Assembly: GCA_947034885.2 (NCBI GenBank)
Contig: OX344754.2
Span: 25,541,369-25,605,368 of the forward strand
Reading direction: 5' to 3'
DNA length: 64,000 bases
Source: Thuidium tamariscinum
Lineage: Eukaryota > Streptophyta > Bryopsida > Hypnales > Thuidiaceae
A program made the translations under genes and the position numbers. This document shows, piece by piece, positions 17,070 to 48,800 of this stretch (the stretch's first letter is position 1; each line of letters opens with the position of its first letter). A model generated the notes under the pieces. The model was not told the origin of the DNA and did no database searches. It saw only the letters and a list, made by a program, of their open reading frames with translations.

Positions 17070-17179
17070 CTTAGGACGTTGTAGGTACACGAACCTGAAT
17101 CCCAATAAATATGTGAATGTTAAAGAACACTATGAACCCCCCTAAGGCCTGAGGTCGAGGGTTGAAAAATAAAAAGGGG

Positions 17180-18350: not shown

Positions 18351-18892
18351 AAAATAGGATAGCAGTACAAAGACGTAGAGACGGGAAATACCATAGGAAA
18401 AGCGGGCCAAACAAACCCAAACACGTATAAGTAGGATAACCGAGAACAAAGCATAAAAGTGGGACAAGAGAATGAAACACGTAAGAAGTAAGCAGCAATT
18501 AAAAGTAGGACAAAGGAACAAAACAAACCTTAGTTAGGATAGTAAAAAAGATCCATTGCTTGGAAGGCACAATGGATTGACGCTTAGACACCCGTAGGTA
18601 GTAGAATTGTTAAGAGCCTGGTTGTGATCGCTTAATTCCAAAGGTGGGAATGAAGCGCCCACATGATGGTGCGTCTACCGGGAGACAGGCTGTCTAAAAA
18701 GCTTGCCTTTTTAGATTCAGTTCGGTAGATAGTTATCTTTTAGATTGGTTGTTTAGAGTTACTTTATTCGTTAGAAGATTTAGGTTTTTATTTTTGTGTT
18801 GTATCTTTGAATATATGTTAAGGATGAACAGTGAGACCCATATGGTAATGTGTTTGCTGGGGGATTCTTGTTTTCACTAGTAGATTTTTAAG
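18351..18892. other. Unassigned sequence left of the foldback element
   Basis: No gene seen. The middle part (18555-18720) is less AT-rich than its surroundings and contains a small hairpin (GCTTGCCTTTTTAGA region). I could not assign it to any RNA family. Confidence 0.4.
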
Positions 18893-23186: not shown

Positions 23187-24385
23187 AAGTGTCCCTTTAA
23201 AAGTTTTGGTATTGAGTTGAAAATTGAAGTAGCAAGGTGCTTGGATAGAAACAAGACATAGAAAGGTAGGCCCCAAAATTAAGAATGCATGCCTTTTCCA
23301 ATCCTTTCAAAGATTGAGGTAGGCGAATTATTTAATATGGCCATTTCAGCATCATGGACTTCTAGATTTGGTCTCTAGTACAAATATTACCTCGCAACAT
23401 GAAAGTAATTTTTTGATTTTAGGGAGAAGAAGAATCTCATTGCCCCAAGTCCATTGAAAAGGATTGTGAAGGTTTCTTCTATACTTTTATCCATTAATGC
23501 TGAAGCTTATACCTAGGTTTGCTTGATTCAAGTTATTGTTTGAATAGAAAAGAAGGAACAAGACGAGAGGCACTTGAATTATTTTATTTAATGGATTGAA
23601 TTGATTTAAATTTTTCTTTGAATGGAAAGAAAGATTATATGTTGCCTAAGTTTGGTTCAACATCTAATTGTGAATATAAAAAGGATGAAACTAAAGAGGA
23701 GGCATTTTAATCATTTAAATTTATTTATTTGTATCATAGAAATCAATGTTATTTCATATTCTAGATAACTATACAATTAATTGTGTCAATAGGATAAATG
23801 AAAAATATTAGTTTTACCTAATTTTTATCTTTCTTCTTGCAATTGGGAAAAAGGTTGTCTTTTATTCAAGCTAAACTCAACTCTCAATAGAATTTTATTG
23901 AAAAGAAAGAAAAGAGCTATTGAATTTAAGTTAAGAGTATCTAAGACTTTCCTTTGAAAATTTGGAAAAAAAATTATATCCATTGTGACCTTCAAGGATT
24001 GAGATATACTAAAATTGTGTGATTAATCCTTCATTCAATCATTAAAAAATTAAATTCTAAATTCCCTTCAACAATATAAATGCTACATGGAAAGAAAAAT
24101 GGGGAGAGAGTGCCCTTGGTCCCCATTGTATCATTTTTTAAGACATTCATCCAAAAACACAAAAATTCCTCAAGAACTAAAAACTCTACTTCAAGATTTT
24201 AAGAAATACAACAAAGTCACCTCCTCCTCTCTTCCAAATCCCTCCTTCATGCATTCAATAACTAAATGAACAATCCCTAGGGGAACTCAATTGTACACCG
24301 CCCTAAAATAAATGAAGAACAAGGGCCTCCACTATTATTAATTAATTCTTCACACTTTCTAAAGTAAAATAAAGAAATGGTAAGG
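23187..24385. repeat. Central spacer of the foldback element
   Basis: The part 23187-23970 has no matching partner in the arms. From about 23973 to 24385 it is an inverted copy of about 20213-20625 (coordinate sum 44598), and so a direct copy of part of the right arm near 26950-27360. The element therefore grew by at least two duplications. No ORF is convincing. Confidence 0.65.
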
Positions 24386-27300: not shown

Positions 27301-28789
27301 CTCCACTATTATTAATTAATTCTTCACACTTTCTAAAGTAAAATAAAGAAATGGTAAGGGAAAAAAAACCATTCATTCAAATTACTTAAAAAAGCAATGG
27401 AAAAAGACGCGCCCTTCACTAAATCCCTTCTTTAGAATTTACACAATAAATAATTAAGTAAAACTACTATAAGAGAAAGTAAAAAAATAACCTACATATC
27501 CAAGCTTTGGTATAAATAAATAGCAAGGGCTACATCACCCTCTAATAACCCCATCCAAAGCCTTCAAGAATCAAATTGAGGAAAACAAATACAAACAAAA
27601 GAACTATTTTACCCTCCAAGTTCCCAAAGATTCAATTCAAGAATGAAGAATCCATGGTCTTGTGAGAAAGAAGATTTGAGGAATTAGGCCACAAGAAAGA
27701 GAAATGCACTTAGCTCTCAAAGGCCTCCACCCTTGTGCAAGTTGTAGTTGGTAGGTGGAGTTCTTAATGTGTCCATTTGACCTCCATGTACTTGGAGATC
27801 TAGTCAACCGTGCTCAAATGAGTTGACAGTAATTAATGTGGCCTTTTGGGGGGGCGGGTTTAGTGAAGAAGAGGAATCCCAAGGCCAAGGCCATTTGAAA
27901 ACACCCACGCAGTTTGTGGTCCCGCCCTGCCTCGCGTCCGCGCCCTGAAGTCCCCGCCCTGCCTCGCGTCCGCGCCCTGACGTCCCCGCCCTGCCTCGCG
28001 TCCACGCCCTAACGTCCCCGCCCTGCCTCACGTCCGCGCCCTGACGTCCCTGCCCTGCCTCACGTCCGCGCCCTGACGTCCCCGCCCTGCCTCGCGTCCA
28101 CGCCCTAGATGTTGGCAGCAGATTTGTTTTTCAATTTGCGATTGGAGTTTTGAGAATCTGGGGGCGTGTAATATACCATTGGAAAGGTATTCAAAATATC
28201 TTTCCAATGGTATATTACACGCCCCCAGATTCCCAAAACTCCAATCGCAAAAGCAGAAGAAAGTTGACGTCTGCGCCCTAGCGTCCGCGCCCGTCTTTGC
28301 GTCCCCGCCCTAGCGTCCCCGCCCAGACTTGCGTCCCCGCCCTGACGTCCCCGCCCGGCCTTGCGTCCGCGCCTGCTCATGGACTCTCTGCATAGTGGAT
28401 TTTAGTAGTAGATTTGTTTTCCAATTTGTGATTGGAGTTTTGAGAATTTAGAGGCATGTAATATACCATTGGAAAGGTATTTTGAATACCTTTCCAATGG
28501 TATATTGCATGCCTCCAAATTCTCAAAACTCCAATTGCAAAAGCAGAAAGAAGTTGACGTCCGCGCCTTGTCATTTTTCACGTCCCCGCCCTGTCTCACG
28601 TCCCCGCCTTGTTTAGTTGTGTCCGCGCCTGTGGTGTCTAGGTGGCATGAATTTAAATCCACGTGGATTTTTTATTACCTTTTAAAAAAGTCAACTATGT
28701 GTTGACCCTATTGGATGGGCGAGAGGTCTATCGGACGTCCCGGACGGACGGACGGGCGAACCGGACGTCCGCCCGGTATGACAACCCTG
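24386..28789 (-). repeat. Right arm of the foldback element
   Basis: Inverted copy of the left arm, with hairpins near 25066-25180, 28130-28245 and 28425-28545. The minisatellite at 27915-28105 has more units than its left partner. Rare substitutions (for example near 28570-28620 against 19080-19120) show the two arms are separate sequences, not simply one sequence assembled twice. Confidence 0.75.
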
Positions 28790-28924
28790 ACTAAGACCAC
28801 CTACGACTATACGAATGAAATTGTGCTTCTCAAAATGCCTCATTCATCTCATGAAAAATGAAAAGCCATTGACCATCACCAAATATGATTTAAGTTGTTC
28901 AAATACAAAAACAACAACAAATAT

Positions 28925-29350
28925 CGTACCTCATATACATGTATAAAATAATTTGAATAGATAAATTTAAATGCTATTATAGATATACAAATATAAATAT
29001 GAGATATGGATTACAAATACGTGATACAAATACAGAATATGGAATATGAGATTTTATTTTTCTAAATTCGTTTTTAAATTAATTAGATTCTGAAAATTAC
29101 AAAAAAATTCAAACGCGAAAGGATAAGCATGTAAAACTTTGTATTCCAAACATGAAACTAGAAATTGATTGTACAAGTATTGTACCTCATATAAACGTGT
29201 AAGATAATTCGAATAGATAAAATTAAATGCTAATATGGATATACAAATATAAATATGGAATTATATAGATTACAAATACGTGATACAAATACAAAATATG
29301 GGATATGAGATGAATTGTCCTAAATTGATTGTCAAAGCAATTGGGTTCTA
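28925..29350. repeat. Two tandem copies of about 248 bp
   Basis: GTACCTCATATA at about 28928 and 29176 starts two similar AT-rich units that share ATACAAATATAAATATG and ATTACAAATACGTGATACAA. Confidence 0.6.
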
Positions 29351-29989
29351 AAAATTACAAAGAAACGGGAATGCGGGAGGGTAATGTAAAATTTTTTACT
29401 TAAAACCCATTTGAAAATCAAATAACCTTTTTTTAATTTGATCGACACAGAAGATACAAAACTGTTACTGAATGCATCAAGTAGGCGTTGTAATAAGTAA
29501 CCCAAAATGTACTTCAAAATACTTCATTGAAATTGTCAATCAATTCATGGGAATAAAAAACAACAGCTATTTAGTTAAAATGGCGGTATGCCACAAACTT
29601 GGCAATTTCAAGGTTTAGACCATGTGGTCTTCATTGTACACCTCTTCTTGATTTCTAGAATTTGAAGTCTCAAATCTATATCAATCCTAGAAATTGAATG
29701 GAAAAGTGGTGTAGCAATACCATCATTTTAACGAAATACCTGTTAAAGTAGGGTTCCTTGAAGTAATTATTAGAAGAAAATGGTTATTATTTTCCATCAT
29801 GTACCATTAAAGATTGAGGAACTTCATAACCTAAGGTACAAGTTATTTGAGTGCTTTGCAATAAAATAAAGTATAGAGAATCCTATTTTCTAATGAAATC
29901 ATTCATCCCTCATGAACCTCTGCAATTTCGTGCATTTTCTTTATGATGGCCTATTAAATTGAAAATCAACGTGAAGGATAGACCCATAA
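29351..29989. other. AT-rich spacer before the satellite
   Basis: No coding potential or repeat period recognised. Confidence 0.5.
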
Positions 29990-32900
29990 AAATATGGAGA
30001 AGTTAGAATGTCATACAACATTCACAGTCTATGACAAATTCCCATTGAAACTTAACATAGTCTACTTTTTGTTGAATTTCGAAAAATAGAACACCTTGCC
30101 ATTTCTTGCGTTAATTTCCAAATGGCCTATAGAATTGGAAATCAATATGAATGGAGAATAAAAAAATTATGAAGAAGGTGAAATTTCATAGAGCATTCAT
30201 ATTCTATGACGAATTTTCATTCCTAACTTAAAATTGTCTACCTTTTGTTGGATTTTGAAAAAACAACTACCCAGCCCTTTTTGGGGTTTTCCTCTAAAAT
30301 GGCTTAAACACTTGAAAATCAATATGAAAGGGGGACAAAAAAAATATGGGGAACTTGAAATATTATAGAACATTCATTCTATGACAAATTTTCATTTTAA
30401 ATTCTAAACCCTAAACCATTTGTTGGATTTGGAAAAAAAAAACTACCTTACAATTTTTTGGGTTTTTTTTAAAAATGGCTTAAAGAGTTCAAAATCAACG
30501 TGCAGAGCTCACAAAAAGAATATGGGGAAGTTGGAATGTCATATAAAATAAATATTCTATGATCAATTTCCATTCCTAACATGAAATTGTCTATCTTTTT
30601 TTTGGATTGCCAAAAGAAAACTACATTGCCATTTTCTGGGTTTTTTTTTAACGTGCCTTAAAGAGTTCAAAATCAACGTGAAGGGGGGACGGAAAAAAAA
30701 ATGGGGAAGCTCGAAAGTCATAGAACATTCATGTTCTATAACAAATTCCCATTCCAAACTTCAAATTGTCTACCTTTTGTTGAATTTCAAAAAATGGACT
30801 ACCCGTCTATTTCTTGGATTTTTCCTATATGGTCTAAAGAGTTGGAAATCTACGTAAAGGGGGACAAAAAAAAAATATGCAGAAGTTGGAATGTTATAGA
30901 ACATGAATGTTCTATGACAAATTTCCATTTCAAACTTCAAATTCTCTACCTTTTGTTGGATTTGGAGAAAAGAACTACCCGGTCATTTTCTGGTTTTTTT
31001 ATAAAATGGCTTGAAGAACTGGAAATAATCGTGAAGTTATGACAAAAAAAGATATGCGGAATTTTGAATGTCATAGAGCATTCATGTTCTATGACAAATT
31101 CCCATGCCAAACTTAAAATTGACTGTCTTTTGTTGAATCTCAAAAAATAGACTACTCTGCCATTTCTTGGGTTTTTTTCTAAATTTCCAAAAGAATTAGA
31201 AATCAACGTAAAGGGTACATAAGAAAAATATGGGGAAGTTTGAATGTCATAGAACATTCATTTTCTATGATAAATTTTCCTTTCCTAACTTCAAATTGTC
31301 CACGTCCTCTTAGATTGGGGAAAAAAAACTACTCGGCCATTTTCTGTTTTTTTAAAATGGCTTAAAGAATTAGAAATGAACATGAAGTTATGACCAAAAA
31401 AATATGGGGAACTTAGAATGTCATTGAGCTTTCATATTCTATGAAAAACTTTCATTCTTAGCATGAAATTCTCTATTTTTTGTTAAATTTCAAGAAATAC
31501 TAGACTACTTTGTCATTTTTGGGGTTTATATGCAAATGGCCAAAAAAATTGAAAATCAACGTAAAGTGTGGACAAAAAAAATATGGGGAAGTTAGAATGA
31601 CATAGAACATTCATGTTCTATGACAAATTTCCATTCCCAACTTCAAATTCTCTAGCTTTTGTTGGATTTGGAGAAAAGAACTACCTAGCCATTTCTTGGG
31701 TGTTTTTTTGAAAATGGCTTAGATCATTGAAAATGAACGTGAAGTGATGACAAAAAAAAATATGGGGAACTTGGAATGTCATGGAGCTTTCATGTTCTAT
31801 GAGAAATTTCCATTCCAAATTTCAAATTCTCTACCTTTTGTTGGCTTTGGAGAAAAGGAGTACCCGGCCATTTCCTGGGCTTTTTTGAAAATGGCTTAAA
31901 GAATTGAAAATGAACATGAAGTGATGACAAAAAAAGCTATGGGGAACTTGGAATGTCATTGAGCTTTCATATTCTATGAAAAATTTCCATTACAAACTTC
32001 GAATTGTCAATTTTTTGTTAAATTTCAAGAAATAGACTACTTTGTCATATTTTGGGGTTTATATGCAAATGGCCAAAAAATTTGAAAATCAACGTAAAGT
32101 GTGGACAAAAAAAATATGGAGAAGTTAGAATGACATAGAACATTCATGTTCTACGACAAATTTCCATTCCCGACTTCAAATTGTCTATTTTTTCTTGGAT
32201 TTGGAGAAAAGAACTACCCAGCCATTTCCTGGGTGTTTTTTTGAAAATGGCTTAGATCATTGAAAATGAACGTGAAGTGATGACAAAAAAAAATATGGGG
32301 AACTTAGAATGTCAAAGAGCTTTCATGTTCTATGAGAAATTTCCATTACAAACTACAAATTGTCTATTTTTTCTTGGATTTGGAGAAAAAGAGTACCCGG
32401 CCATTCTGGGGTTTTCTTTTCAAATGGTTTAAAGAATTGAAAATGAACGTGAAGTGATGACAAAAAAAGCTATGGGGAACTTGGAATGTCATTGAGCTTT
32501 CATATTCTATGAAAAATTTCCATTCCAAACTTCGAATTGTCTATTTTTTGTTAAATTTCAAAAAATAGACTACTTTGTCATATTTTGGGGTTTATATGCA
32601 AATGGCCAAAAAAATTGAAAATCAACGTAAAGTGTGGACAAAAAAAATATGGGGAAGTTAGAATGACATAGAACATTCATGTTCTACGACAAATTTCCAT
32701 TCCCAACTTCAAATTGTCTATTTTTTCTTGGATTTGGAGAAAAGAAGTACCCAGCCATTTTTTGGGTTTTTTTTTTAAATGGCTTAAAGAATTGGGAATG
32801 GACGTGAAGTTATGACAAAAAAAAATATGGGGAACTTGGAATGTCATAGAGCTTTCATATTGTATGACAAATTTCCATTCCAAACTTCAAATTGTCTACC

Positions 32901-33330
32901 TTTTGTTAGATTTGGAGAGAAGGAGTACCATGTTTATTTTGGGGTGTTGTTCTAAATGGCCTAAAGAGTGGAAAATCAACGTGAAGGGGGGTCGAAAAGA
33001 AATATGTGTAAGTTTGAATGTCAACAAACATTCATGTTCTAGGGCAAATTCTCGTTAATAACATGAAATTGTCTGTTTTTCGTTGAATTTCAAAAAGTAG
33101 GGTACCTTGCTTTTTGTTAGGTTAATATATGATTGGCCTATTGAATTGTACATCAATGTGAATGGAGAATAAAAAAAAGTATTGGGAAGTTGGTTTGTCA
33201 TAGAACATTCATGTTATATGACAAATTCCCATGCCAAACTTGAAATTGACCCTAATTCCCATGTCAAACTGGTAATTCTGAATTTGTAGTTGAATTTCAA
33301 AAATTGGGCTACCATGTAGTTTTGTTTTGG
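29990..33330 (+). repeat. Satellite array, monomer about 177 bp
   Basis: About 19 monomers. A landmark TTCAT within GAACATTCATGTTCTATGAC recurs at 31081, 31256, 31431, 31610, 31789, 31966, 32143, 32322, 32499, 32676, 32854, 33031 and 33209, a spacing of 175-179 bp. Each monomer also carries TATGGGGAA, a TTGGATTTGGAGAAAA-type block and ATGGCTTAAAGAATTGAAAA. The length equals a nucleosome repeat, as in centromeric or pericentromeric satellites. Left-side monomers are more diverged. ORFs in the array are accidental. Confidence 0.85.
31430..32960 (+). repeat. Trimeric higher-order repeat of about 533 bp
   Basis: Three monomer types alternate. The type with AGAATGACATAGAACATTC lies at 31610, 32143 and 32676 (spacing 533 and 533). 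The type with TCATTGAGCTTTCATATTC lies at 31431, 31966 and 32499. The third type lies at 31789, 32322 and 32854. Copies one trimer apart are far more alike than neighbouring monomers. Confidence 0.8.
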
Positions 33331-34780
33331 ATTTCTTCTCAGAATTGTAGACCATGAAAATTTTTTAAGAACCAATTCAAATTTTTCCTACAAAATCTTG
33401 TTAGAATTTTCATTTAAGTTTTTTCAAAAATAGATAGAGAGCAACAGAAATAAAAAACTGTGATGGAAAATAATTGTCACTGAAGAAGTTCTAAAATTTT
33501 GTTCATGGTTCTAAACTCATTACATTCTTCTTAAGCCTAAACCCTAATACATAGGATATGCTAGAAGATGAGGAGACTCTAATTGGAAATCTTGCTAAAT
33601 TTATGAAAATCAAGAGCAGTAATTAAATAAATAAATTACAATCCTAAAATCCTAAACCCTAAATCCATGAACATAGAGACTATAATGTAAAAGTAATTAT
33701 GTAGTAGTTTTCAAAGATTTTTTGAAATGTAAAGAATCATAAAATAAACGTTTGAATTATTTATCATCTTTGAGGGCTTAGAATTTTTTGAGACATTCTG
33801 CTATTGGAATACATAGAAACAGAAGAAAAATAAAAACATTATTAGTTTTAAAAGTAGTGGCCTTTCAACTGATTTCTTTGGAATGGATGGTTTGGGTTAA
33901 TAATATGACACAAGCGACATCAATGCTTTTCCTTACAAGAATTATGGCATCATCATGCATGCCATGATAAGCTTCTTCATTATCAATTGTATTCATTACC
34001 TCGATCATGACTTACACGCTTCTAAATTGTTGTGCCTCATTTTAATATTAATTTATTTTTAATGGCATCAATGATTTAGGGCAAGGATACCTTAGTTTGA
34101 ATATAAAACCTTTACTAGTTCATCAAATTTAATCTCCGTTCAAAGTACAATGCCTAATTTGTGATTGAAGTTCATGATGTATTAACTAAGAGGTCATATT
34201 GAAGTACTTGGAACAGGACTTTGCTGTCCATCTAAAATGAGAACTATTAGACTTGCAGCTTGTAAATGTTCTTATGTAAGAAGCTTCTTCATAAACAATT
34301 TTGAACCTCTTGGAGCTACTTCTTTGAAGAAAATAACAACCTTTCTTAAAATCATTATTTGTGGGTCATACGAAGAAGGCGTGCAATCTCACAAAATCAG
34401 TTTCATTAATTGCAAATGTACAATTGCTCTTGTTTTAACCACCAATAAAACCAAATAAATAAATAAACAAATTACAATGTCCATTCTCTATGAAGAATAA
34501 GATTCTGTAATCAATTTCAATATAATGACAACTAATTTATAATCTCTGCCTAATTCAAAATAAAGAATCGCGTTGCTACTATGCTTTCAAATGAATTTGT
34601 ATAGAAGTTCAGAAATAATTAGAAACAAAGAATGAAAGAGTGAACTCATGTTGAATGACTTTTTTAGAATTCTAACATTGGTATTTAATTTCCAAAATAA
34701 TTCCTATGTAACATAGAACACTCTCTTCGTATAGTAGATAATTTCAAAGGCTTGTTAATGTTTTGAAATTTGCATGCAAG
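33331..34780. other. AT-rich sequence between satellite blocks
   Basis: No gene recognised. A few CCTAAACCCTAA-like strings near 33535 and 33650 resemble telomere units but are isolated. Confidence 0.5.
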
Positions 34781-34789
34781 AAAGTCAAC

Positions 34790-35380
34790 AACAAAAATAT
34801 TGAAGTGACAATGCTATGAAACATTCATATTCTATGACAAATGTTGTCTTCATGCAATCTAATTGCTTAAGCTGTATTTGATCCAGAAGTATGCACTTTT
34901 TTGCCACTGTTCGGTAGGAAACCATAGAAGCATGCAAATGTTTTAAAATTGACGTGCATGAAAGCCAAAAAATAAAATGTGTAAGTTGGAATGCCATTGA
35001 ACTTTTATTTTCTAAAACCCATTTGAATTTTTTTTGATCTTATTGCTCCATTCTCATTTAATGCAATACAAAGGGCAGCTCTACCATTTCTTTAGGAAAC
35101 CACAAAAGCATGCAAATGTTTTAAAATTCACGTGCATGGAAACCAAAAAACAAAATGTGTAAGTTGGAATGCCATTGAACATTTGTCTTCTAAAACCCAT
35201 TTACATTTTTTTTGATCTTATTGCTCCATTCTCATTTAATGCAACTAAAAGGGCAGCCTTGCCATTTTTTTAAGAAACCACAAAAGCATGCAAATGTTTA
35301 AAATTCACGTGCATGGAAGCCAAAAACAAAATTGTGTAAGTTCGAATGCCATTGAACGTTTGTGTTCTATGACCCATTTG
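34790..35380 (+). repeat. Diverged satellite units, about 178 bp
   Basis: GGAATGCCATTGAAC or its variant recurs at about 34988, 35166 and 35344 (spacing 178), with GCATGCAAATGTTTTAAAAT and ACGTGCATG(G/A)AA in each unit. The order of motifs parallels the main array, so this is probably an older branch of the same satellite. Confidence 0.65.
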
Positions 35381-38320
35381 GAATTTTATACTTTCTAACT
35401 TGTGCCTCATTCAGGACTATTGAATATTTCAAATTCAGTTGCTTTGGCAAACTTCTTCGAAATTGGGATGGCATATAATTATTTTCAAATGTACTTGCAT
35501 GAAGACAAAAGAAATGTAGATGACGAATGTTATAATAGGAATGTTTTATATTCAAATTAAATTCCGACAGGACTCTATTGTTTAATTACAAAGAACTAAT
35601 GGACACTATTTACAATCCCGAACTGTATATACAGATTCTACTATTTTCTCCTATGCCGAATTTCCCATTGCAATGTTCTTTGAATTTATTGAATCATATT
35701 ATAGGTTCAAGAAGATAATGAATGATTCGTTTGTATTGTTTTTGCACTTAAGGAAATCATGGTCGTAGTGTAAGTAATTAGTAATAGTGTACTAATAGGA
35801 GTAAAAATTATATAGAATTTGAGTTTTATTTTTTTCTCCCATAATTATTCAATTGCCTACTTTTGAAACTTGTTCAAGTGTGTTGGATTCTTTTAAAAAA
35901 GGAACCCATGAGTGTGATCTTATTTCTTGCAGGATTTGAATTGAGTCATGTCTAAAAAATAGATAGTAATTGTCTTTATTTGAATGTAAAAAAGTTACAT
36001 AAAAATTACTTACTTTTATTGTCATAGCAAAGTTAGTAAGGTATTTAGAAATAAATGAGACTTTCATCTTCATTCTCATTGTTTTTAAGATAATCCAATG
36101 AACTAAAAAAGTACTAGTGGCTTAAAAAGAGTAATGGAGTTTGGTCTCCATTCTTATTGTACATTATAATAAGATTAAATTCAATAAAAAATCAACTTGT
36201 AGAAATTATGTGTGTATAAGAATACTTCATGCAAATTGCATGTTATATTGTTCCAATCAAATAATTATAATTTAATTTTGTCTTAATGTTTAGGATGTTT
36301 AGGGAAATTGAATGAGCTTTAAGAGCTCAAAAGTTTAGGAGGCTACAATTTTGAATTTCCTATGTTTTTGAATTCCATTAAACATTAGCAACGTCTATAA
36401 TTATTTTAAGCATATTAGTCAAACTAGTCAAACTTAAGGACTTGAACAACCAAGTTTTACTAATGAAAAACCACTTCAAGTTTTATTTCAATTGTTCATG
36501 AATAATTTTCAAAGGGTATGATGTACAAATTGTAATTTCTTTGTGCTTCTTGTAGGACGTATACAAATATTTTTAAATTGTACGTTTTTTCCCCTATGCT
36601 TTGACATTGACAAAAATGTCCTTTACTAGATTTTTGTTCATAGAGTACAATGTCCCATTCATTTAGGATGATATAAATGTCGGAGTAGAAGAAAATAATG
36701 AACCCTACAATTTTTCTTCACTTGGTTTCATATTCTTTTTCAACAAAGGTCGGAAGACTTTGAATTGAGAACTTTAAAATTCCGTGGCAAAATGAAATTT
36801 GAAAGAACGTCTACATTCTACGCGTGAAAAGTTTTCTCCTTATGAAATTCTATGCCTTAAAGGGGACTAGTTCTAGACCATACAATTGTAAGAGAATGTA
36901 GTTATTATGTAGAATCTAAAAATCTCAATAATTTTAACCCTAAAACTCTAACTTTTGAATCTTAAATCCTAGACACTGGACCCTAAAATCCTAGAAGAAG
37001 AAATCTTAAATTTTGATTTTGAAATCCAATAGTTTCATAGAAAGAGGAGTCGTATTTCCCCTTATTATTCACCATTACCACGCAAAAACTATAATACTTA
37101 CTCCGAAGCAAAAGGATTCGAAATATCCCTTTCAATTCACAAACAATGTGGAACCTCAAAATTTACTTAGAAGATTTTTTCCTAAACTTAAAGTATTGTT
37201 TATTTCAAAATTTGGGATTGTAGATTATTTCCTGAATTGAGTGGCAAGGCAATATACAGTAGAAAGAATAACTGTGCTTTATTCCAATCATAGTACGGAA
37301 CGTGAATTGAAATTCTTGAGAGAATTTTATGCCATAATGACAACGGAGAAAAGGAAAAGCCTGTCAAAAAGCAGGGAATAAAGGGAAGATAAGAATTTGG
37401 ATACAAGCTGAGGTCAATGATCCTCCATAACCTCATATAATGGCCAAAAAAAGATTGGAATTTTGACCTTGGCTACATGCGGCAAACTGGACCTGTGCCC
37501 TTTTTTAACAATAGAATGTAGTTTTAGAAGTACTTGTTCAAAAATATACTGTAAACTTTGAGATACTATCAATGTTTTTCCGGATACAAATGAAACGGAA
37601 TACTATTTATGTTGAGTCTAGCCATGAAGTGTCTTACAGCTTTAGAAACGGACCGGAATCATTCAATGCCAGTATCCCGCGCCTGCCCTTTTCCAATAAC
37701 AGAAAAAGGAAGCCAACAAATTCCGATCAGCAACCAAGAAATTGCATGGGTTCCTTCCTAATTCAAACGTCTCAATTGTACTTGCCGCCTTCGTCCCTCC
37801 CGCCAAGAAATTATCATCATTCAACCTATATTCCAACTCCTTCCGGAGGGTGAGCGTTCTCTCATTTTCGTTAACACATTCTTGAGGTCTCTTGCTGCTC
37901 TTCGGTTTGCGCGCGGCGTGTTCTGCGAACGTTAGGTGTTGTGTGCATTTCGAAGGTTGTTTGTAGTACGTTGTAGAGTTCCGCGGTGTCGAAGGCTGTG
38001 GTGGAAAGCTTCGGTGACTTGGGTATGGCATACACTTTCTTGTAGTCTCCGCAGGGTTTTCTGAATTCGCTCTGAACATTTCTGTTGTCGGATACTGGAG
38101 TCTGTCAGCAGTCCTCGTCGATAGATGTATTTGCTTGTTGATTGTATATGCTAGTTTCACGAACCCCAGTGGTGCAAATTGCGATACATTGTTGTGTGCT
38201 ACGATTGTGCTATCGATGATCTCAGGGAATGCAAGAGGACTCCTATTTTCGCGCCGCAGAACCCGGAACATAGAAGTGTTCGATTGTACAGAATAACTTC
38301 CGTGAAATCCGGAGCTATTT
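35381..38320. other. AT-rich region and 5' flank of the DUF7869 gene
   Basis: Nothing coding is recognised in 35381-37560. From about 37840 to 38280 the sequence is richer in G and C and has the look of a promoter or 5' leader of the downstream gene (for example CGCGCGGCGTGTTC near 37910). A minus-strand frame across 37663-38271 has no recognisable features. Confidence 0.45.
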
Positions 38321-38515
38321 AGCTCGACTCAACCTAAATGTAGCCGATTGTCACGCCCAAGTTCATGTTGGGGACCCTTTTAGCTCGACTCGACCTAAAT
38401 GTAGCAGATTGTCACGTCCAAGTTCATGTTGGGACCCTTTTAGCTCGACTCGACCTAAATAAACCACTCATTAAGAATATATCTTTTATTACTATTGTTT
38501 AGGTCGACTCGACCT
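38321..38515. repeat. Upstream palindrome array, about 60-bp phased
   Basis: Cores start at 38321, 38382, 38442 and 38501 (61, 60 and 59 bp apart), with three more at 38624, 38792 and 38955. The best copies read AGGTCGACTCGACCT inside TTTA...TAAA, an odd-centred perfect palindrome of 21 bp. The second and third units are whole 60-bp direct repeats that include GATTGTCACG and AAGTTCATGTTGGG. Confidence 0.8.
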
Positions 38516-39059
38516 AAACTAGATATCAGATGAAATCCAGAAATTATCACCATCTATGATGAAGTACACCATGATTTTTCAGGTTATAAAAATTAATTAC
38601 AATGAATAGAGACTAAACAGTTTAGGTCGAATCGACCTAAATGGTGAATATATCACAATGTCCGGTTCACTGTTTTGTATTATTGAAATGAACAGAATGT
38701 TACTTTATATACGGTGATTATCTTTACTCAATACAAGAACAGTCATGTGATGACTATATAATAATGCCTTATCCTTAGATTTGATCTTTTTAGGTCGACT
38801 TGACCTAATTTACATTCTACAGTTACTCTGATTAGAAACTATGTTATGTTTGTCTTCCGAGATACAATTGTTGTTTCTATTGACAATTCATTTAATATCC
38901 ACTTGCTACTGTCTTGGAAAGATACTTCAAATTCTAGCGTACGATGGATGTTTTAGGTCGAGTCGACCTAAATGGTACATAGAAGAAGACTTTCTTCTGT
39001 GTTTCTATTACCTTCCAATTGTAGCTAATTTGAGAGTCTGATTGTTTGATTCAGATATC

Positions 39060-41897
39060 ATGTCTTCCTCGATCATTCCAGGGGGTTCTATGGACTCTTC
39101 AGACAACGAGTTTCAGGTTCTCGAGGGAATGAATATCGGCATTCCTGAGTGTGAAGGGTTGCCGCGCCGACTTTGGAATACAATGTGTGTTACGCTCTAC
39201 AACATTCAAGGAACGCTCGTTGGGGAGGGAACTTGTCATAGCGTATCCTCAGACCTTGTCCTGGGTGCAAATGGTCCTCTTGGAGACACACATGTTGCAA
39301 TTCACATCTCAAAGACGCACTCTGAGGAAGACATCCCCCGGGAGCGGGTCTATTCATTGATGGCCTGGTCAATTGATTACGTGCACTGTCGAGGGGCTAG
39401 TCTTCGCGACCACGAAGCTCGGGATAATTTCAACCGCCTCCAAGCAAGTATTTTGAATCCTCCATCACTTACATCTTCTCGACCTTACACAAGTGTCGTT
39501 CGAAATCCTCCACGTGAAGTTGGATTGAGGGCGAAGGAACTTCTCACACAAGAGTCCATCAACGCTGTCTCCAGCAAAATCTGCTGCGCCAAAAATTGCA
39601 TTCAGCCGTTTCCGAGGGAGAAGATAAAATCATTTCGGGAACGCATGTACCAGCGTTCGACGTTCAAGTTTAGGGCCCATATGAAGACGGAAGTTCATAG
39701 GTCCGTGCACCGTGATCCAAGTGGGAGGAAGATGGTTGTCGTGGAGGGGATCAGTGTGTGCATGCGGGCGTGGATGCTCATTTCTGGAGTCCCTGAGGCT
39801 ACATTCTACCGCTACCAAAGATATGCAAACAACAATCGAGAAGCAAGGGACCATGGCAACTTCGGTTTGCTGAAGCCAAGGCAACACACTGAACAGGCAG
39901 CCGCTACGCTAAAGTGCATCCTCGAAAACGAGGCAGACCACATGCCACATAAAACACGGAGTATGAAGTCTGGAGAGAAGGTGGTCTCTATGATTTTGCC
40001 ATCAACCTTTCAATGGAAGGGGCAGATGAAAACAATCAATGAAACAAACGCTGCCTTCGGCTTGAGAGATATCTCGCTCTCCAATCTGAGTAAAATAAGG
40101 TCCAAGAAATTCTCTGAATTTGAAGTGAAAAAGCCAGGGGACAATTTTGCTAGATGTGCCACTTGTGATCAGTTGCAGGAGTTGAGGAAGAGTGCTTTGG
40201 CTGGATCTGTCAGCGCATTGAAGTGGTCACGTAGGTTGGACAAACATCTGGCTATCGCACGTGCCCACAGAGAGTACTACTACGCCAATCGATACCGCTG
40301 TTTCAATTCTCCGCATGAGTGCCTCACGATCATGCACGACAAGATGGATCATGCCAAGACGGCTTGCCCAGTATTCTCACACAAGAGTAAGGACACCGAT
40401 GGCTTGGTGAAGTTGCCAATTTCTGTCACGGGCATGATTGCCCACGGACATGGTGACGTCCGGTATGCCCATTATGGCTTGGATATCTTCCCCCATGATT
40501 CAAACTACACTATCGGCTCCATGGCGAGGTTGTTACGAGATTTGGAGGAACCGCCAAAGTCTTCTTCAAGAATGTTGTTTGTGGGGTCAGGGTCCACCAA
40601 CTTATTTCAAAGGGTTTTGAAGGGTGCAGAAATGTGTGAAGCATCACTACCGCCGCCACCACAAACCTTTGTTTTTGGAACACCATTGCCTCCGATTCTT
40701 AATGTGCAGATGGACAATGCCACAGGTGACAATAAGAATCGGTATGTTTTTTGTTTCTGGTCTCTTCTTGTCGCCAACAAGATTTTTCGAGAAGTTTACG
40801 TGAACTTCATGATTGTTGGGCACACACACGATGACATCGATGCGTTGTTTGGGAGATGGAGTATGCTATTGAAGAAGGAGAATTTCCCAACAGTTCCAGC
40901 ACTCATGAAATCGTTCATGGACGTGGAATCTATTCCAACTATTCCCCACCTCATTGAGGAGGTGCCGGACTTCAAGGGATTTATAGCAGGTTCATTTGTT
41001 GATGGTGATGAGATCCTTGTTGGACATACAAAGCCACAACAAGTGAAGTTCTACTTGGATTCAAATGGAGTTCCAGTCATGAAGTACAAATTGCTTTGTA
41101 CTGATCTTGAATGGTTAGGGGAGGATGGTAGAGGTATCAAGTTGTGGAAGGAAGATTCTGAGGGACGTAGTCTGTGGCCTCGTGGAGTGCCATTGCCTGT
41201 TTCCCCCAAACCAATGAGAGGATTGGAAGACATTGAAAAAGGCATTGGAGGCTTTGTGAAGTATTGGGAAAACTTATGTAATGCAGATGTCACAGGAGAG
41301 TGTCGAAGGCGTTACGAGCATGTGGTACACTATTGGCGTGATGTGAAGAATGCTTTGCAAGAACCACTACTTCCATGCATGGTTTTGAAGGACGGTTTCT
41401 GGCCAAGTACTAGAGTTGAAGCCACTAAAGCCGATCAATTAGGAGAAGATGGGGATGAACTTGAGGAGTTTGGGGAGGACGATGCTTATGTTGGGCCTTT
41501 GCGTGGTCGTCCGCAACCATCTTTCAGGGTTGGTCGTGATCTCTTTGAAGGTTATTTTGTAGCAGTTCGTCCAGCAGATGGTGATACACGGCCAGTTTGG
41601 ATTGCAAGGGCATTGTCTAATCCGGATTGCAATCCGGAGCACCCGAATTGTGTGCTCATCCAATACTTCCGTCCGACATCAAGAGACCAGGATGTGCGAG
41701 ACTACTATACTGGTTGGGATAGTGCAAGAGGTCTGCGTTGGAAGGTGGACATAAATGATCCTCCAATTTGGGAGCATACTAATGCTTTGATGACAGCATG
41801 GAAGTCTCAAATCAAGAAAGATACTCGACAGTGCTTGTTGAAGATTCCACCTACTCAAATTGAAGTGATAAACCGGAGCCTTGAAATGTTTACTTGA
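39060..41897 (+). CDS. DUF7869-domain protein, possible transposase
   Basis: Intact frame of 945 codons from the ATG at 39060, with no introns or stops. The C-terminal half has the pattern I associate with DUF7869 proteins: QMDNATGDNKN with D552, then VGHTHDDID with H588, H590, D591, D592 and D594, within a region of alternating strands and helices. Spaced Asp residues of this kind suggest an RNase H-like metal-dependent fold; that is inference. C366-x2-C369 may be half of a zinc site. HGHGD near residue 460 is also typical of the family. The N-terminal 350 residues are unfamiliar, with a basic helix-rich stretch that could bind DNA. The gene sits between palindrome arrays. DUF7869 has no assigned activity that I know of; cellular location is unknown. 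Confidence 0.75.
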   Translation: MSSSIIPGGSMDSSDNEFQVLEGMNIGIPECEGLPRRLWNTMCVTLYNIQGTLVGEGTCHSVSSDLVLGANGPLGDTHVAIHISKTHSEEDIPRERVYSLMAWSIDYVHCRGASLRDHEARDNFNRLQASILNPPSLTSSRPYTSVVRNPPREVGLRAKELLTQESINAVSSKICCAKNCIQPFPREKIKSFRERMYQRSTFKFRAHMKTEVHRSVHRDPSGRKMVVVEGISVCMRAWMLISGVPEATFYRYQRYANNNREARDHGNFGLLKPRQHTEQAAATLKCILENEADHMPHKTRSMKSGEKVVSMILPSTFQWKGQMKTINETNAAFGLRDISLSNLSKIRSKKFSEFEVKKPGDNFARCATCDQLQELRKSALAGSVSALKWSRRLDKHLAIARAHREYYYANRYRCFNSPHECLTIMHDKMDHAKTACPVFSHKSKDTDGLVKLPISVTGMIAHGHGDVRYAHYGLDIFPHDSNYTIGSMARLLRDLEEPPKSSSRMLFVGSGSTNLFQRVLKGAEMCEASLPPPPQTFVFGTPLPPILNVQMDNATGDNKNRYVFCFWSLLVANKIFREVYVNFMIVGHTHDDIDALFGRWSMLLKKENFPTVPALMKSFMDVESIPTIPHLIEEVPDFKGFIAGSFVDGDEILVGHTKPQQVKFYLDSNGVPVMKYKLLCTDLEWLGEDGRGIKLWKEDSEGRSLWPRGVPLPVSPKPMRGLEDIEKGIGGFVKYWENLCNADVTGECRRRYEHVVHYWRDVKNALQEPLLPCMVLKDGFWPSTRVEATKADQLGEDGDELEEFGEDDAYVGPLRGRPQPSFRVGRDLFEGYFVAVRPADGDTRPVWIARALSNPDCNPEHPNCVLIQYFRPTSRDQDVRDYYTGWDSARGLRWKVDINDPPIWEHTNALMTAWKSQIKKDTRQCLLKIPPTQIEVINRSLEMFT

Positions 41898-42271
41898 GGG
41901 GTTATAGTTATGAAGACCTACTTCATATGGTAGTGTTGAGGTTGCATCACATATGTCCTCGAGTGTTTTTATTGCAGCAGTTGGTTTGGATTGGATTTGG
42001 TTTTGATTTGTCTCTGCTGTTAATTGTCTTACATTGCATATCGGTTTCTAACAAACCATTGCATTAGGTGTTAGTTTAATTGTTTTGATTTTCCAAGTAC
42101 TTTTAATAAAAACTATTTTTATAGCGAATGGAATTGTTACTGCAAGTTATCATTGAGTACTAGGTACCTTCAGCGTATTTTTGCATTCAATGTATGAATG
42201 CCTGATGTGGAGGTTGAATAAATCCATAAATTAATGGATTTATAGATGTATTTGGTGAAGAGTTACGTTTT

Positions 42272-42409
42272 AGGTTGAGTTGACCTAAATTGCATTTTCT
42301 TCGTAGTTGTTTTTTAGAGGTGCAATCAAATTAGGTTGATTCAAACTAAACAACAGTGCATTTGTGGATTAACTTTTGGCATAGGATGCTATTTAGGTTG
42401 AGTCGACCT
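42272..42409. repeat. Downstream palindrome array
   Basis: Cores at 42272, 42333 and 42395 (61 and 62 bp apart) read AGGTTGAGTTGACCT, AGGTTGATTCAAACT and AGGTTGAGTCGACCT. They are C-to-T decayed versions of the upstream core, at the same spacing. Confidence 0.75.
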
Positions 42410-43440
42410 AAAGTGTTAGTTCAGTTCTAGTTTTGGTTTCATGGAGCCGCCATCATGTTGTCTACGATTATTGATTGATGGGAGATTTTTTTATTTTTTT
42501 GAGTTCATTCAAATTGAATGGAATGTGTTTCTTCATCTTTGCAATTTAGGTTCGATCATTGTGAGCAATTAAGCTCTTCATTAATGAAACGAAGATTTGC
42601 AGCCCCTATCGCAGGATAATGTGTTCACTTTTCACTTTGGGGCTTCATATTTAATCAAGGAAATGTAGTTTGGTTGCATCCACTCATACAATTTTTATTT
42701 TCAAATATGAAGAAGATGGTGACAGTTTTACTATGTTCACAGTAAAAAAAATTAGGTTTTTATTATTATTTATATAACTACTTCTTTAAAAAATGACTAA
42801 ATTAGAAGAACGATTGAATTCCATTCTATCAAAAATGTTGTATTTGAAATACATTTTATTCTAGTGAAGCTGTTCTAATGGATATTCTGTAGTATGGAAG
42901 TCAAAATGGTATATGATCTTTGTTAAATATGTTTTAGTGAATGAAGCCGTTGGCTCAAATTGATTTTGTTGTAATTAGCTTTGACAAAGAATTATAATAG
43001 TTTTAGGTATTCTATGATTCTCTGAAAACGCTTTGAATTTCATTAATATCAAGTTTGGATCTTGAATGAGCTTTCTTTTATGAGCTTATCCTTTTTTAAT
43101 ATTGATTTATCATTTTTGAATTCTTGAGATAATTATTTCATTTATTTTCAAATAATGCTGAAAAGTGTTTTTTGTGCTATTAACACAGGTTCTGGAGTAT
43201 AGTTTTAGAATTTTAGAAAAGAATTCTATTTTCACTCTATATAATAATATAATTTCCACTTTCTATTTGTAAAATCTTATAAGTCTTATTTTATAAAGTG
43301 TTACTGTATTAGTGTCAATTGTAATATGTAGAATTCAATTGTCAGGTCTATATATATTCAATTAGGACATTAAAAAATTACAAAAAATTGTGTTTGAGTT
43401 CTAAATACAACCTTACTCTAGCTCAGTATCAGGATAGCGC
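42410..43440. other. AT-rich spacer
   Basis: No gene seen. A decayed transposon end may lie here, but I could not identify one. Confidence 0.5.
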
Positions 43441-43457
43441 CTACGGCTTAATTAAAT

Positions 43458-43560
43458 GGAGGTCAACAGGATTCGAACCCGGACCTCCAATCATACAACA
43501 ATCAGTCTCTTGCATCGCTTCCCGCAATATACCCTAACTGAATAGGGTGACTACCAAAAG
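43458..43560 (-). repeat. tRNA-like SINE remnant
   Basis: The minus strand holds GGTTCGAATCC (complement of 43469-43479), an exact Pol III B box, inside a GGAGGTC...GACCTCC stem. A box-like sequence upstream is weak and no acceptor stem closes around the whole, so it is not a functional tRNA gene. A tRNA-derived SINE or a tRNA pseudogene fits best. Confidence 0.4.
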
Positions 43561-43845
43561 GAAAGATTCACATATGAATAGGTAAAGTGCAACATTCACT
43601 AGGTACTAGTTTGTATGAAATATTGTAACTTTGAATAGAAACACGAAATTAAGATTAGAGATGCTATATTTCCACGACTTTAACCTATCATTTTAATGGA
43701 AATTACAATTTCTAACTTGTGAAATGAGATCCATTCGAACTAAATTAAATACAATTATAGATGGTTTTTTGGCCCTGCGAATGGATAATATTATTTTGGG
43801 AGGTCCTCAATCTACCAAATTAATGAATATGATGTTCTTGGGGCA

Positions 43846-45870
43846 TTGAGAGACATTATTCTAACCTATCCGCACATATTTGCGCAAGGCTGCATGGCAC
43901 ATGCATTGGATTTGATGTTGGAAGATTGGTCCAAGATTCAGGAATTTTCCGATTTAATTGACAGGGCAAGAAGATTGTGCCAATACATTCGAAACCATCA
44001 TGCAACCATGTCGGTTTTTCGTGAGTTGAGTCCAAACCTACAACTCGTAGTGCCTAGCGAAACTCGCTTTGCTTGTAATTTCCTCATGTTACAGCGAGTG
44101 GTGAAACTCAGAGGAGTCTTGGAGCAGTTGAATAACCACCCCCGTGTTATAAATTACTATGATACCCTACGAAACGAACAGAATGGACCACAGGCAGCTA
44201 CCGCTTCATGTAATGTCAGAAGAACCATTGAAGATGTGGCCTTTTGGCAATGATGTGTGAATTACGTGTACATGACTGAAGACGTATTGAAGGCTTTGCG
44301 TGTGTTTGATGGACGAGAACCAGCCATGGGTCGGGCGTGGCTCGTGATGCACAACTTGCGAAGACACGTGTATTCTTTGAGAGAACCGCCTTTTAGCTTA
44401 CGAGATGACATAGCAGTCACTTTGGAGAGATCTTTCAATGAAAGATGGGACATGATTTTTGAAGATACGTACTACGCCGCGGCCCTTTTGAATCCATACC
44501 TCTTGGATAACGTGGCGCTCAGGGTAGACGGAACTGCGCTACGTGCATTGTACAGAGTCATCCACAAAATGGAAGATGTAGTGGGTGTCACTTTTGATGA
44601 TGTGTTGGCGGAATTAACTCAATTTGAGGAGGGTAGTGGACCGTACAGTGCAGCTGAGACACCCAACATCCGTGTGACACAAATGCTTCCCCACCAATGG
44701 TGGCATAGGGTTGGAGATCGGGCTCTTTCAAAAATTGCCGTGCGTATTCTATCCCTCACGTGTTCGGCCAGCTCTTGTGAAAGGAATTGGAGTATGTATT
44801 CCTTTGTTCACAATAGGGTCCGAAATCGATTAGCCCCCGTAAAGGCAGAGTCATTGGTATATATTTATACTAATAGCCGTGTACTTCAGGAAAGACCAGG
44901 AGCCGATCCAGTTCGTTGGTATGATGCAAATATATACTCGGAGGATTCCGATCCAGATGCCCTTGGTCCGATCCCTTTGAATGAACGCAATCGGGAATTT
45001 GACGCAATGCAAGCAGAGGAAGAAGAAGAGGTTGGTGTGGAAGCCAATGAAGCACCTCAAGAGTATCCGGCGAACCCAGATCTTTGGAGGCGAGGTGCCG
45101 ATCACCTCGAGGAAGCGAGAAACTACTATGGAGATGTTGACGATGGAGAGGAAGAACCCGTTGGTGGTCGTTGGGGTCCTTGGGTACCCAATCCTCATCG
45201 TAATCCTTCACCTCCTCTTCCTCAAAATGAAGGGGTCGCAGAAGTCCAAGCTTTGTCATCTTCTTTAGAGGCCGCCAATCCAAATGACGATGACGTGGAT
45301 GATGGTATCTCCCATAACAACAACGACAATGATGACGACCTCCCTCCAAGAAATGGCGGCGGAAATGGAAATGGAAGCAATAATGGAAGTGGCGGTGAAA
45401 ATGAAAATCGCGGCGGAAATGGAAATGGTGGCGGAAACATGGGGAGGACTACAAATCCAAATTGTGGAGGATCTTCTCACAATCAAGATGGCAATACAGG
45501 GCCTACAAGAATGGGAGCATCAGTTCGTAGCAATATTGTTGTTGAACGACACCATGACAAAAACGTTAGAAATGCAAGAATGGCACGCCCCATTGGAAGG
45601 AATCAATCGGCAAGTAATGTGAGAAGGCGTTTTGATCCAGAGCATGTAGACTACAATGATGTTTTTGCATTTATTGACGCACCAGAAGACCTTGCGCGTG
45701 AACCCACTCCAGTTGGTTCTGACCAAACTAGCCAAGCGCCACATTCCCTAGACCCATCTTCACCAGCAACTTCCAATGCCATCCAAAGACCTTTTGAAGA
45801 AGGGTTAGGCTCTATGAGAAATGTTGATATGACTCCTCAAAACATTTCTCGTGGTACTGTTGGTGGTAGA
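43846..45870 (+). pseudogene. hAT transposase 2, truncated 5' end, split by element C
   Basis: Starts in the middle of the RNase H fold (YPHIFAQGCMAHALDLML, matching CVVHALNLLLKDW of hAT 1), so the BED finger, DUF659 and the first two catalytic Asp residues are missing. A single TGA at 44251-44253 stands where hAT 1 has Arg, as expected from CGA to TGA. The hATC region with SASSCERNWSMYSF is at about 44690-44880. It is followed by an acidic region and a Gly/Asn-rich stretch (about 45350-45450). The frame is cut at 45870 by element C, whose duplication GTAGA occupies 45866-45870 and 49657-49661; it resumes in phase at 49662. It is related to hAT 1 but clearly a different lineage. Confidence 0.85.
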
Positions 45871-48800
45871 TGTCGTAGCACAGGAAAGTCAAGTTGCTTC
45901 TCTAAGACCGAAAATGGCCCTAAAGTGACTCGTTTATCGTTCCCACAGAGATTTGGTTGCCAGATGACTAATATCCGGAAATCAGAATAAGGATTACCAC
46001 AAAACCCCAAGCACACTTATATACTTTTACCTTATCATACTCTAAAACTCTACAGACTCCCCTATTTACAAACTTACAAAATCCAAACCGGAACAGAGAG
46101 TGGGTAGCAAATCCAGCTCTCCTACATCCTAAGATACTTTTCGGTTTTTCCCAGTAACCAATGTCCGGAATCGAGTTTAACCTCTGAATAAAGAGGGATC
46201 TGCGTATTGTGATTAAGGAAGGAAGCTTACAACCTACCCTCTGCGTTTTAGAGTGTCAAGAGTGCCACTTAAATAAAGAAAACAGCAAAACAACATCAAT
46301 CCTATTCAACCTAATTTCCCTCACAACTAAACCGGATAACTATCTGGCCTAGCAGGTCACGCAAGGAAACTTCAGTCAAAGTCTAACTTACACTACAACG
46401 ACGGCCTACTGGGTTAGTCTAAACTCTGGGTAGAATCTGGGACGGGCGGATTGAGAAGTCGTCACCTTCCCTACACATTTCTGGTTACCAAAGAACCTGT
46501 CTACCGCTTGAACTGGAGTTGTCCGGAATCATCAACGGCTATGGCTCCAAGTGACTGGGACTATCTTTAGATAACGGGAAAACCGGAACCGATCGCACTG
46601 AGGGATCAGGAATCCACCATCACACACAGATTGCACTTACACTCCCAAGAATCCGGATAAACCCAATATCCGGGCACACTCTCTCCCTACCTATTCCTGC
46701 AACTCTACAGAACATACACCAACAGTGTCACCCACTGGAATACACGCCGTCACCTCAATGTGAACCAGAAACGCTGACTTGAATTGCAAAATGCTAGGAA
46801 AACAAGGTATGAAAATGCACCCCAAAAGAACTAAAAACAAACACCTAAATACTTTACAAACCAAGGGAAACTACAGCTCGAGGAAATCAAAGCTAACCAC
46901 CAGGGAATGACACCTGTCATTCGCCTTATCCTTCTCCTCAGTTGACTTCCACTGAGAGCCAAAAACTGCCGAAAAAGGTGGATCTCAGATCCGAAAAACC
47001 CGGATTCAGTTGAGTCCAAACTACCTACTCACCTAAAAGCCACTAGGAAAATGCTTCTTACCAAAAACTTAGGTTTTCAGCCTTCTAACTACTGCTACCT
47101 TTAACCCTAGATCTACTTTCTTGGCCGCTTCCTTGGAGTCTCTCCCGACTTGGCGGCACCCTTTCGTACTGGCTGTTTCCGGGTAGAACCGGAAGTGTTC
47201 TTGCGCTTCTTCGCCTGGGTGGACTTGGCCTTCAGTTGGGCTTTGACCTTGCGTGTCATAGCCAACTTGGCATCCGGATCAGAATCCGGTTCTGACTCCT
47301 CCCCTCCTGATCCAGAAGATTCGTCATCTTCTTCCTCGGATTCGTCTTCCTCTTCTTCTTCCTCTTCCTTGATCTTAACCGGAATTGCCTTCTTCTTCTA
47401 GCTGTCGGTTAACTTGCTCTTGGATGGAGAAGGTTTGGGGGACACTGTAGGTTTCTTACTCTGTGGAGTTCCCACACTCCCTTCCCAATGCTGTGATTGG
47501 CTCTTGGTCAAGGAAACCGGTGTCTCCTCCGTCCCGGATTCCAGTATGATGGCCGATTTGGGAGGTGTGGTCATAACCACATCCTCAGAGGGTTCTCTAG
47601 TAGTTTCCTTCGTCACCGGAGTTGCTGGCTTCCCTTTTGGCAAGGGTGGCTTAGAGGGTGTCACCTCTGTCACTTTCTCCTTTTCCGGTTTAGTTTCCGG
47701 TCGGATGGGCGGACCGACCTTTCCCATGACTTCCCTCATCTGTCCCAACAACCTTTCCATCTTTACGTTGAAGGAAACTAGGACATTGATCACCTTGTCC
47801 CCTATTTTCCCTGTCCCCTCTAAGACCTTCTCATCAAAGAGTTTGGCCTTGTTCAAAACCTCTGCCGGAACGCTAATGAATTCCTTAATCCGGTCAAGGG
47901 TTTCTACAGACTTGGCTGAGAACTTCCGGTTCCGCTCATTTTCCTGCTTTTGCTCACTCAGCTCTGCCTTAAGGGAGAGCAATTCCTCCATCATCTCCTG
48001 ATGCTTAGCCTTTCCGGATTTTCCCTCAACATCGTCTATCAGGTTCTGGAGCTGCTCTATACATTCACTCTCCGGAATGTCTCCCAACATCCCGCATACC
48101 CTTTTCAAGGTCTTCCTCTCTTGCTCATAACTCTCATGAACTTTCGTGAGCTCCCTTATGAAAGACCCTAACGGGTCACTGTTCCAGACAGGGTCCTTCT
48201 CCTTCTCCTGCTCTACCTTGACCCCTGCCCCGCTATCCTTTTCCGGTTCCGGTTTCCCGAGTAACCCGGAAGGTTCTCCCTCTCTCTCATCTTCCTCTTT
48301 CTCATCATCTGAATCCGACTTCATTCCATGGGCTAACTTCACCTCTCTCACCGTATACTCCTGTCTTTCAGTTTCCCTCATGCAATCCTGTGAATGATAG
48401 AGGTGATAGAGAAAAGGAGAAATACTAGAGGGCTTACTCTTGCCAATCCCCTTGCACAGCTTTACTACATAATCTCTCAGGGCTATACCCTAGTCTATCT
48501 TCCTGTCCTCGCTTAGCGCTCCAAAGAGGGTATTCCCCAAGGTGAGAGTCATCCGGTTTCCCCTATCCGGACTGAGAATTGGTACCATAAACTCTAACAC
48601 CCTCCTCTCTCTCGCGTTCTTACAATCACTTACAGTATACCCATCCTTGTTGTGAGGTGCTGCCCGGAACTTACCCACCATGAACTTGTCAGTTCGTGTG
48701 GCTCCTCCTTCCCCTTCCTTGGCGAAACCATACACTTCCCTCCAGATTCCGGCCGTCCATTTGTCCGGAAGTGCCCTAATCGTTTTCTTCCACTCGTTCA

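Follow-up and report, generated by a model that had tools for sequence, protein, structure and literature searches.

The DUF7869 Gene and Its Flanking Palindromes

The stretch of Thuidium tamariscinum DNA described here (64 kb, contig C6:25541369-25605368; hereafter the window) contains a gene of the DUF7869 family that is flanked on both sides by short palindromes and lies within a damaged copy of a 23.5-kb DNA transposon. The genome searched for related sequences comprised 363 Mb in 19 contigs. The open reading frame (ORF) at 39060-41897 is free of stops over its 945 codons, as a preliminary description of the locus had stated, and its product matches PF25273/DUF7869 with E 4.7e-42 (144.2 bits against a curated cut-off of 26), this being its sole Pfam match. 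Ten matches to TTTAGGTCGANTCGACCTAAA with at most four mismatches occur in the window, all of them beside the ORF, seven upstream (38318-38972) and three downstream (42269-42412), in agreement with the numbers first reported. With the inner 15-mer and at most two mismatches, nine matches were found in the window, where the expected mean is 0.11 and the largest of 100 shuffles gave two. The features of the element in the window are the following.

28790-43836, plus strand: left-truncated copy of the 23.5-kb transposon (blastn, copy on contig C2 against the window)
29957-33248, no strand: 177-bp tandem array within the element, common to the C2 copy
38318-38338, no strand: palindrome 1, two mismatches to TTTAGGTCGANTCGACCTAAA
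38379-38399, no strand: palindrome 2, one mismatch to TTTAGGTCGANTCGACCTAAA
38439-38459, no strand: palindrome 3, one mismatch to TTTAGGTCGANTCGACCTAAA
38498-38518, no strand: palindrome 4, exact TTTAGGTCGANTCGACCTAAA
38621-38641, no strand: palindrome 5, exact TTTAGGTCGANTCGACCTAAA
38789-38809, no strand: palindrome 6, two mismatches to TTTAGGTCGANTCGACCTAAA
38952-38972, no strand: palindrome 7, exact TTTAGGTCGANTCGACCTAAA
39060-41897, plus strand: DUF7869 gene, 945 codons, probable DDD transposase (ORF, Pfam, protein alignment, and the ratio of nonsynonymous to synonymous substitution rates, dN/dS)
42269-42289, no strand: palindrome 8, two mismatches to TTTAGGTCGANTCGACCTAAA
42330-42350, no strand: palindrome 9, four mismatches to TTTAGGTCGANTCGACCTAAA
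42392-42412, no strand: palindrome 10, one mismatch to TTTAGGTCGANTCGACCTAAA
43820-43836, minus strand: right terminal inverted repeat AACATCATATTCATTAA (copy comparison; terminal-base match of the window copy)
43837-43840, no strand: CTTG, right-hand target flank, whose left partner is lost in the window copy
12320-12323, plus strand: GTGA, uninterrupted target (empty site) of the copy on contig C3, in a hAT gene (joined-flank match)

A Mobile Element With Defined Ends

The ends of the element were set by comparing four copies, on contigs C2, C3, C9, and C6. Each copy starts with AACACTATATTCATTAA and finishes with the complement of AACATCATATTCATTAA, giving imperfect terminal inverted repeats of 17 bp with two mismatches, and perfect 4-bp target duplications were found in all four (AATG, GTGA, AATC, AGTT). 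The C2 copy is 23,468 bp long (C2:8026827-8050294). When its last 437 bases were compared with the genome, every one of the 40 scored matches (the best 40 of 154 candidates), including the window copy, stopped at the terminal base. An empty site was found for the C3 copy, whose joined flanks align without gaps to window positions 11724-12919 (1196 bp, 98.3%), where a single GTGA lies in an uninterrupted hAT gene; the joined flanks of the other three copies had no empty-site match in the sequence searched. The exact ends, the target duplications, and the one empty site establish that the DUF7869 locus is a damaged copy of a mobile DNA transposon with defined ends. The preliminary description, which had proposed a DNA transposon and a search for other loci to align, was right in this respect. 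It had also pictured a single gene bracketed by the ends of the element. However, homology between copies runs far beyond the palindromes on both sides, which rules out a single-gene transposon ending near them, and the element, at about 23.5 kb, includes at least one further linked gene.

The copy in the window matches bases 9714-23468 of the C2 copy, through the right end, and is without the left part of the element. Three further copies are present on C6 besides that of the window (loci L005-L008, at 24.94, 25.16, 25.39, and 25.58 Mb); they are spaced by about 190-230 kb and share more than 99.7% identity with the window copy over 5.8 kb, and a segmental duplication is possible. Satellite-like arrays with a unit of 177-178 bp lie inside the element, at 29957-33248 (about 18.6 units) and at 34915-35387, and the C2 copy matches them.

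DUF7869 as a Candidate Transposase

The entry PF25273 assigns no function to DUF7869, and no paper with this word turned up in a literature search. A genome search with the window protein gave 948 candidate places, of which the best 48 were scored (77-100% identity), while the DUF7869 profile gave 852 candidate places, with all 150 that were scored exceeding the cut-off; four relatives of the window protein also exceed it. The dN/dS values were 0.05-0.12 in seven pairs (seven of eight pairs gave a value), and DUF7869 is under purifying selection. Across nine DUF7869 proteins, with identities down to 24%, D427, D430, N558-K559-N560, and GHTHxDID (587-594, with D592 and D594) are invariant, and D552 is kept in eight of the nine. 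The predicted strands and the acidic residues follow one another in an order that appears to resemble that of an RNase H-like core. DUF7869 is the best candidate for the transposase, which would use an RNase H-like DDD core to cut the ends of the element; the purifying selection and the invariant acidic motifs make the role first proposed for this protein likely, as far as sequence comparison can tell.

Relatives of the window protein were not confirmed in IMG/VR, where 280 stretches matched the search pattern and none encoded a relative, nor were any found in phages at E 0.01. A comparison by sequence with solved structures likewise found none, the alignment giving two chance-level rows. A divergent DUF7869 type was observed at L045:3394-6600 and L046:1681-4902, with 1069-1074 codons and 24% identity to the window protein.

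A Linked Second Gene

The best exon of the linked gene, hereafter the second gene, lies at C2:8032300-8033592 on the minus strand. In a genome search that scored 97 of 448 candidates, 39 of the 48 scored DUF7869 copies had this gene no more than 45 kb away, and in all 39 it is located 5′ of DUF7869 on the opposite strand, in a head-to-head arrangement. Linked second genes are mostly 43-47% identical where DUF7869 is 81-82% identical, and one nearest match has 35%; judged by these identities, the second protein diverges faster than DUF7869. The best Pfam match of the second-gene exons is HEPN-like_int, at E 0.034 and below cut-off. Two accessory proteins had no match in phages at E 10, and against solved structures each gave a single row (E 0.3 and E 1.4). 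A six-frame, intron-blind search of the genome with N6_N4_Mtase gave no match over cut-off. Further, the C2 copy carries a NIF-phosphatase-like ORF in its left part (E 4.6e-7). A large share of the listed copies of DUF7869 and of the second gene, many with stops, is found on contig C11 (17.5 Mb), which is perhaps a heterochromatic or sex chromosome.

Placement and Conservation of the Palindromes

Successive palindromes in the window are separated upstream by 61, 60, and 59 bp and then by 123, 168, and 163 bp, and downstream by 61 and 62 bp. The spacing of about 60 bp originally reported therefore holds for the first four upstream sites and for the downstream sites, but not for the rest. The regular upstream stretch coincides with a 61-bp tandem repeat (38318-38460) and spacings differ between copies, which rules out strict 60-bp phasing and with it the notion of phased arrays.

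The exact 15-mer occurs at 316 sites in the genome, against two in a reversed control. At 30 loci, several of them near-identical and hence not independent, 137 sites with at most two mismatches lie upstream of DUF7869, 64 downstream, and none in its coding sequence, with shuffles giving 0.0. All 50 of the sites listed, out of the 316, are within 20 kb of element genes and 43 are within 6 kb, compared with 0.6% for random places; in this and the following proximity counts, both the site lists and the gene lists are the matches listed and not totals. Palindromes at unrelated genes, a case that the preliminary description had raised against its own proposal, were not seen among them.

In older copies (L020-L030), the non-coding flanks can be aligned with those of the window only over one 74-bp piece and at most about 230 bp downstream of the ORF. 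These copies keep the palindromes, though at other positions. When ten closer copies are compared, variation affects 14 of the 120 columns in the arms, against 340 of the 636 columns that surround them (Fisher p 9e-19, the columns not being independent), and the centre base varies in five of six sites. Each palindrome contains two CpGs; across 100 distinct site sequences, the CpG positions carry 53 changes, 45 of which are C-to-T or G-to-A transitions, and eight such transitions fall on the four other inner G/C positions. Either deamination of methylated CpGs or a tolerated TTGA would fit the CpG changes.

The C2 copy has 20 sites at up to three mismatches. DUF7869 has six of them on its upstream side and two on its downstream side, another six lie upstream of the second gene, and two are further left; two pairs are located in apparent introns of the second gene, with 86-88 bp between the members of a pair. 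The middle of the copy, about 10 kb, has no palindromes, and the outermost sites are separated from the termini by about 1.2 and 1.4 kb. The palindromes are thus unlikely to be end repeats, and their earlier description as subterminal arrays does not apply.

Palindrome Arms Differ Between Subfamilies

A search for any palindrome beside DUF7869 relatives recovered a common core, TCGANTCGA, with arms that are changed symmetrically: AGC-TCGANTCGA-GCT in L033 (82% identity), TATCT-TCGANTCGA-AGATA in L047 (49% identity), and TATCG-TCGANTCGA-CGATA in L048 (47% identity). At least four arm types are found on one core across the subfamilies. The genome contains 219 sites of the TATCT type, and the control none. 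Of 50 listed sites, 45 have a DUF7869 match within 20 kb, compared with 1.2% of random places; like those of the window family, the TATCT sites lie about 2-3 kb to the upstream side of the DUF7869 domain or about 7-14 kb away. For the AGC type, with 88 genome sites and none in the control, 35 of 50 listed sites are within 20 kb of the 42 places of the 77-83% identity class (random, 0.5%) and none is near the 23 window-class copies. Similarly, none of the 50 listed window-type sites is near the 77-83% class.

Sequences Surrounding the Window Copy

On its truncated left side, the window copy of the element borders on a 9.9-kb foldback (18893-28789), which has arms that are 97-99.7% alike, GC-rich 32-bp tandem repeats, and the ends CAGGGTTGTCATACC. 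The window also contains two hAT transposase genes, at 11611-14811 (Dimer_Tnp_hAT and DUF659) and at 43846-45990 (Dimer_Tnp_hAT), the latter adjoining the right end of the window copy. The segment 60494-63502 is a degenerate member of an abundant gene family, for which 629 candidates were found and 150 scored. A relative on C2 contains the motif DGNHRRIAW, and the family has a weak ParB resemblance; it gave matches to a ParB-like PHROG (E 0.27) and DUF1015 (E 0.074), and in NCBIfam to transcription factor E (E 0.00087), at 18.8 bits and below the cut-off of 149.5. The C2 transposon copy appears to be inserted in a member of this family.

Comparison With Known Transposons

The excerpts of published work on which this comparison draws describe Sola elements as having a DDD transposase, 4-bp duplications, and inverted repeats of 11-1124 bp, as sometimes exceeding 15 kb, and as being present in Physcomitrella (PMC10741241; PMC9033089). 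The element described here is similar in its large size (about 23.5 kb), in the 4-bp target duplications of all four copies, and in its 17-bp inverted repeats, which fall within the reported range. It can be termed Sola-like, a likeness drawn from published descriptions and not from a transposase alignment. Because 4-bp duplications and short inverted repeats fit those descriptions, no new superfamily is needed, and the new kind of transposon initially suggested is not called for. The 21.5-kb Sola1-1_Ec32 of Ectocarpus encodes, on the opposite strand, a protein that combines ParB-like and methyltransferase domains (PMC12477816). The present element also has an accessory gene on the opposite strand; however, its second protein has no recognised ParB domain, and the genome gave no methyltransferase over cut-off. 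The excerpts of Sola descriptions mention no subfamily-specific palindromes.

Sequence-specific marking of an element's own copies has been described for VANDAL transposons. VANC21 localises to introns, intergenic regions, and terminal non-coding regions of VANDAL21 via a family-specific motif and induces methylation loss (PMC5735166; PMC10398659), and the VANDAL motifs have diverged between related families and spread in the form of tandem repeats (PMC5735166). Going by these excerpts, the element in the window is comparable in having family-specific short motifs, partly tandem, in non-coding regions. However, its transposase is DUF7869 and not of the Mutator type (Mutator-like element, MULE), its target duplication is different, and its motifs are palindromes on the fixed core TCGANTCGA, with a putative reader protein and a second gene of no recognised family. 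Kolobok and piggyBac, reported to duplicate TTAA (PMC9587614), do not match the duplications found here. As far as the literature searches reach, both the subfamily-specific palindromes and the tie between DUF7869, a Pfam entry without a function, and a giant mobile element with defined ends are new.

What Might Read the Palindromes

In Ac and CACTA elements the transposase binds subterminal sites, and the preliminary description suggested that the palindromes are binding sites of a DUF7869 transposase; such sites would be used to assemble a transposition complex. The palindromes do accompany DUF7869 genes across several subfamilies, and they resemble sites for protein binding that belong to the element. 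However, about 1.2 kb at each end of the C2 copy is free of palindromes, and some lie as deep as 7 kb in the element and apparently within introns, so that they are placed by gene and not by end; the transposase is unlikely to be the binder. The arrays immediately upstream of both genes could alternatively serve as promoter or enhancer elements at which the transposon exploits a transcription factor of the host. This is improbable, as the arms vary by subfamily within one genome while the core is constant, the listed window-type sites are all near element genes, and further sites lie downstream of DUF7869 and apparently in introns.

The palindromic form of the sites would also suit parS-like loading sites, on which a ParB-like second protein would cluster or segregate the copies. 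The excerpted account of the opposite-strand gene of Sola1-1_Ec32 (PMC12477816) points the same way, as does the likeness of 38 residues of the second protein (E 0.26) to a different family that is itself weakly ParB-like. Yet the second protein has no ParB match in Pfam, PHROGs, or NCBIfam, and with no N6/N4 methyltransferase over cut-off in the genome this proposal is quite improbable. Finally, the palindrome pairs in the two apparent second-gene introns of the C2 copy could form hairpins in RNA that guide splicing or small-RNA formation. However, sites are also found up to 741 bp before the start of DUF7869 and on both sides of an ORF without interruptions, and the symmetric arm changes and free centre base suit a protein dimer on DNA; a role in RNA is highly improbable.

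The explanation that we hold, on balance, to be probable is that of a giant Sola-like cut-and-paste transposon with a DUF7869 transposase, in which the palindromes bind a homodimer made by the element and have a regulatory or anti-silencing role specific to each subfamily. Because the arms change symmetrically with the subfamily and the centre base is free, the palindromes may be read by a homodimeric protein that the element encodes, for which the second-gene product is a likelier candidate than the transposase. Because the sites mark promoters, 3′ flanks, and apparent introns and not the ends, the role would be regulation or anti-silencing of the element's own copies: by analogy with VANC21, the reader would cover the promoters, introns, and 3′ flanks of these copies, and their genes would be switched on or kept free of silencing. 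With arms shifted in each subfamily, each reader would act only on its own kind.

Several observations weigh against this explanation. Nine of the 48 DUF7869 copies have no listed partner gene (three of the nine are the window copy and two of its C6 sisters). The second protein matches no family over curated cut-off in Pfam, PHROGs, or NCBIfam, and nothing in PHROGs below E 0.17. Among the sites listed, five of 50 of the TATCT type and 15 of 50 of the AGC type are not near a listed element gene. In the stretches examined, L032 has two palindromes and L034 none, although both belong to the 81-82% class, and the divergent L045 and L046 have no TCGANTCGA palindromes in 8-9 kb. The descriptive basis of the Sola likeness counts on the same side.

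More tentatively, a lineage other than Mutator may have independently evolved an anti-silencing self-recognition coded in palindromes, with a TCGANTCGA core, changeable arms, and codes that do not cross-react, each read by its own rapidly evolving second protein; we regard this as possible but doubtful. A domain without an assigned function is now linked to a giant mobile element, and one core with at least four arm types and several proteins offers a natural series for the study of protein-DNA recognition. If the anti-silencing role is true, escape from silencing through a self-made reader of the element's own DNA would have arisen more than once in transposons.

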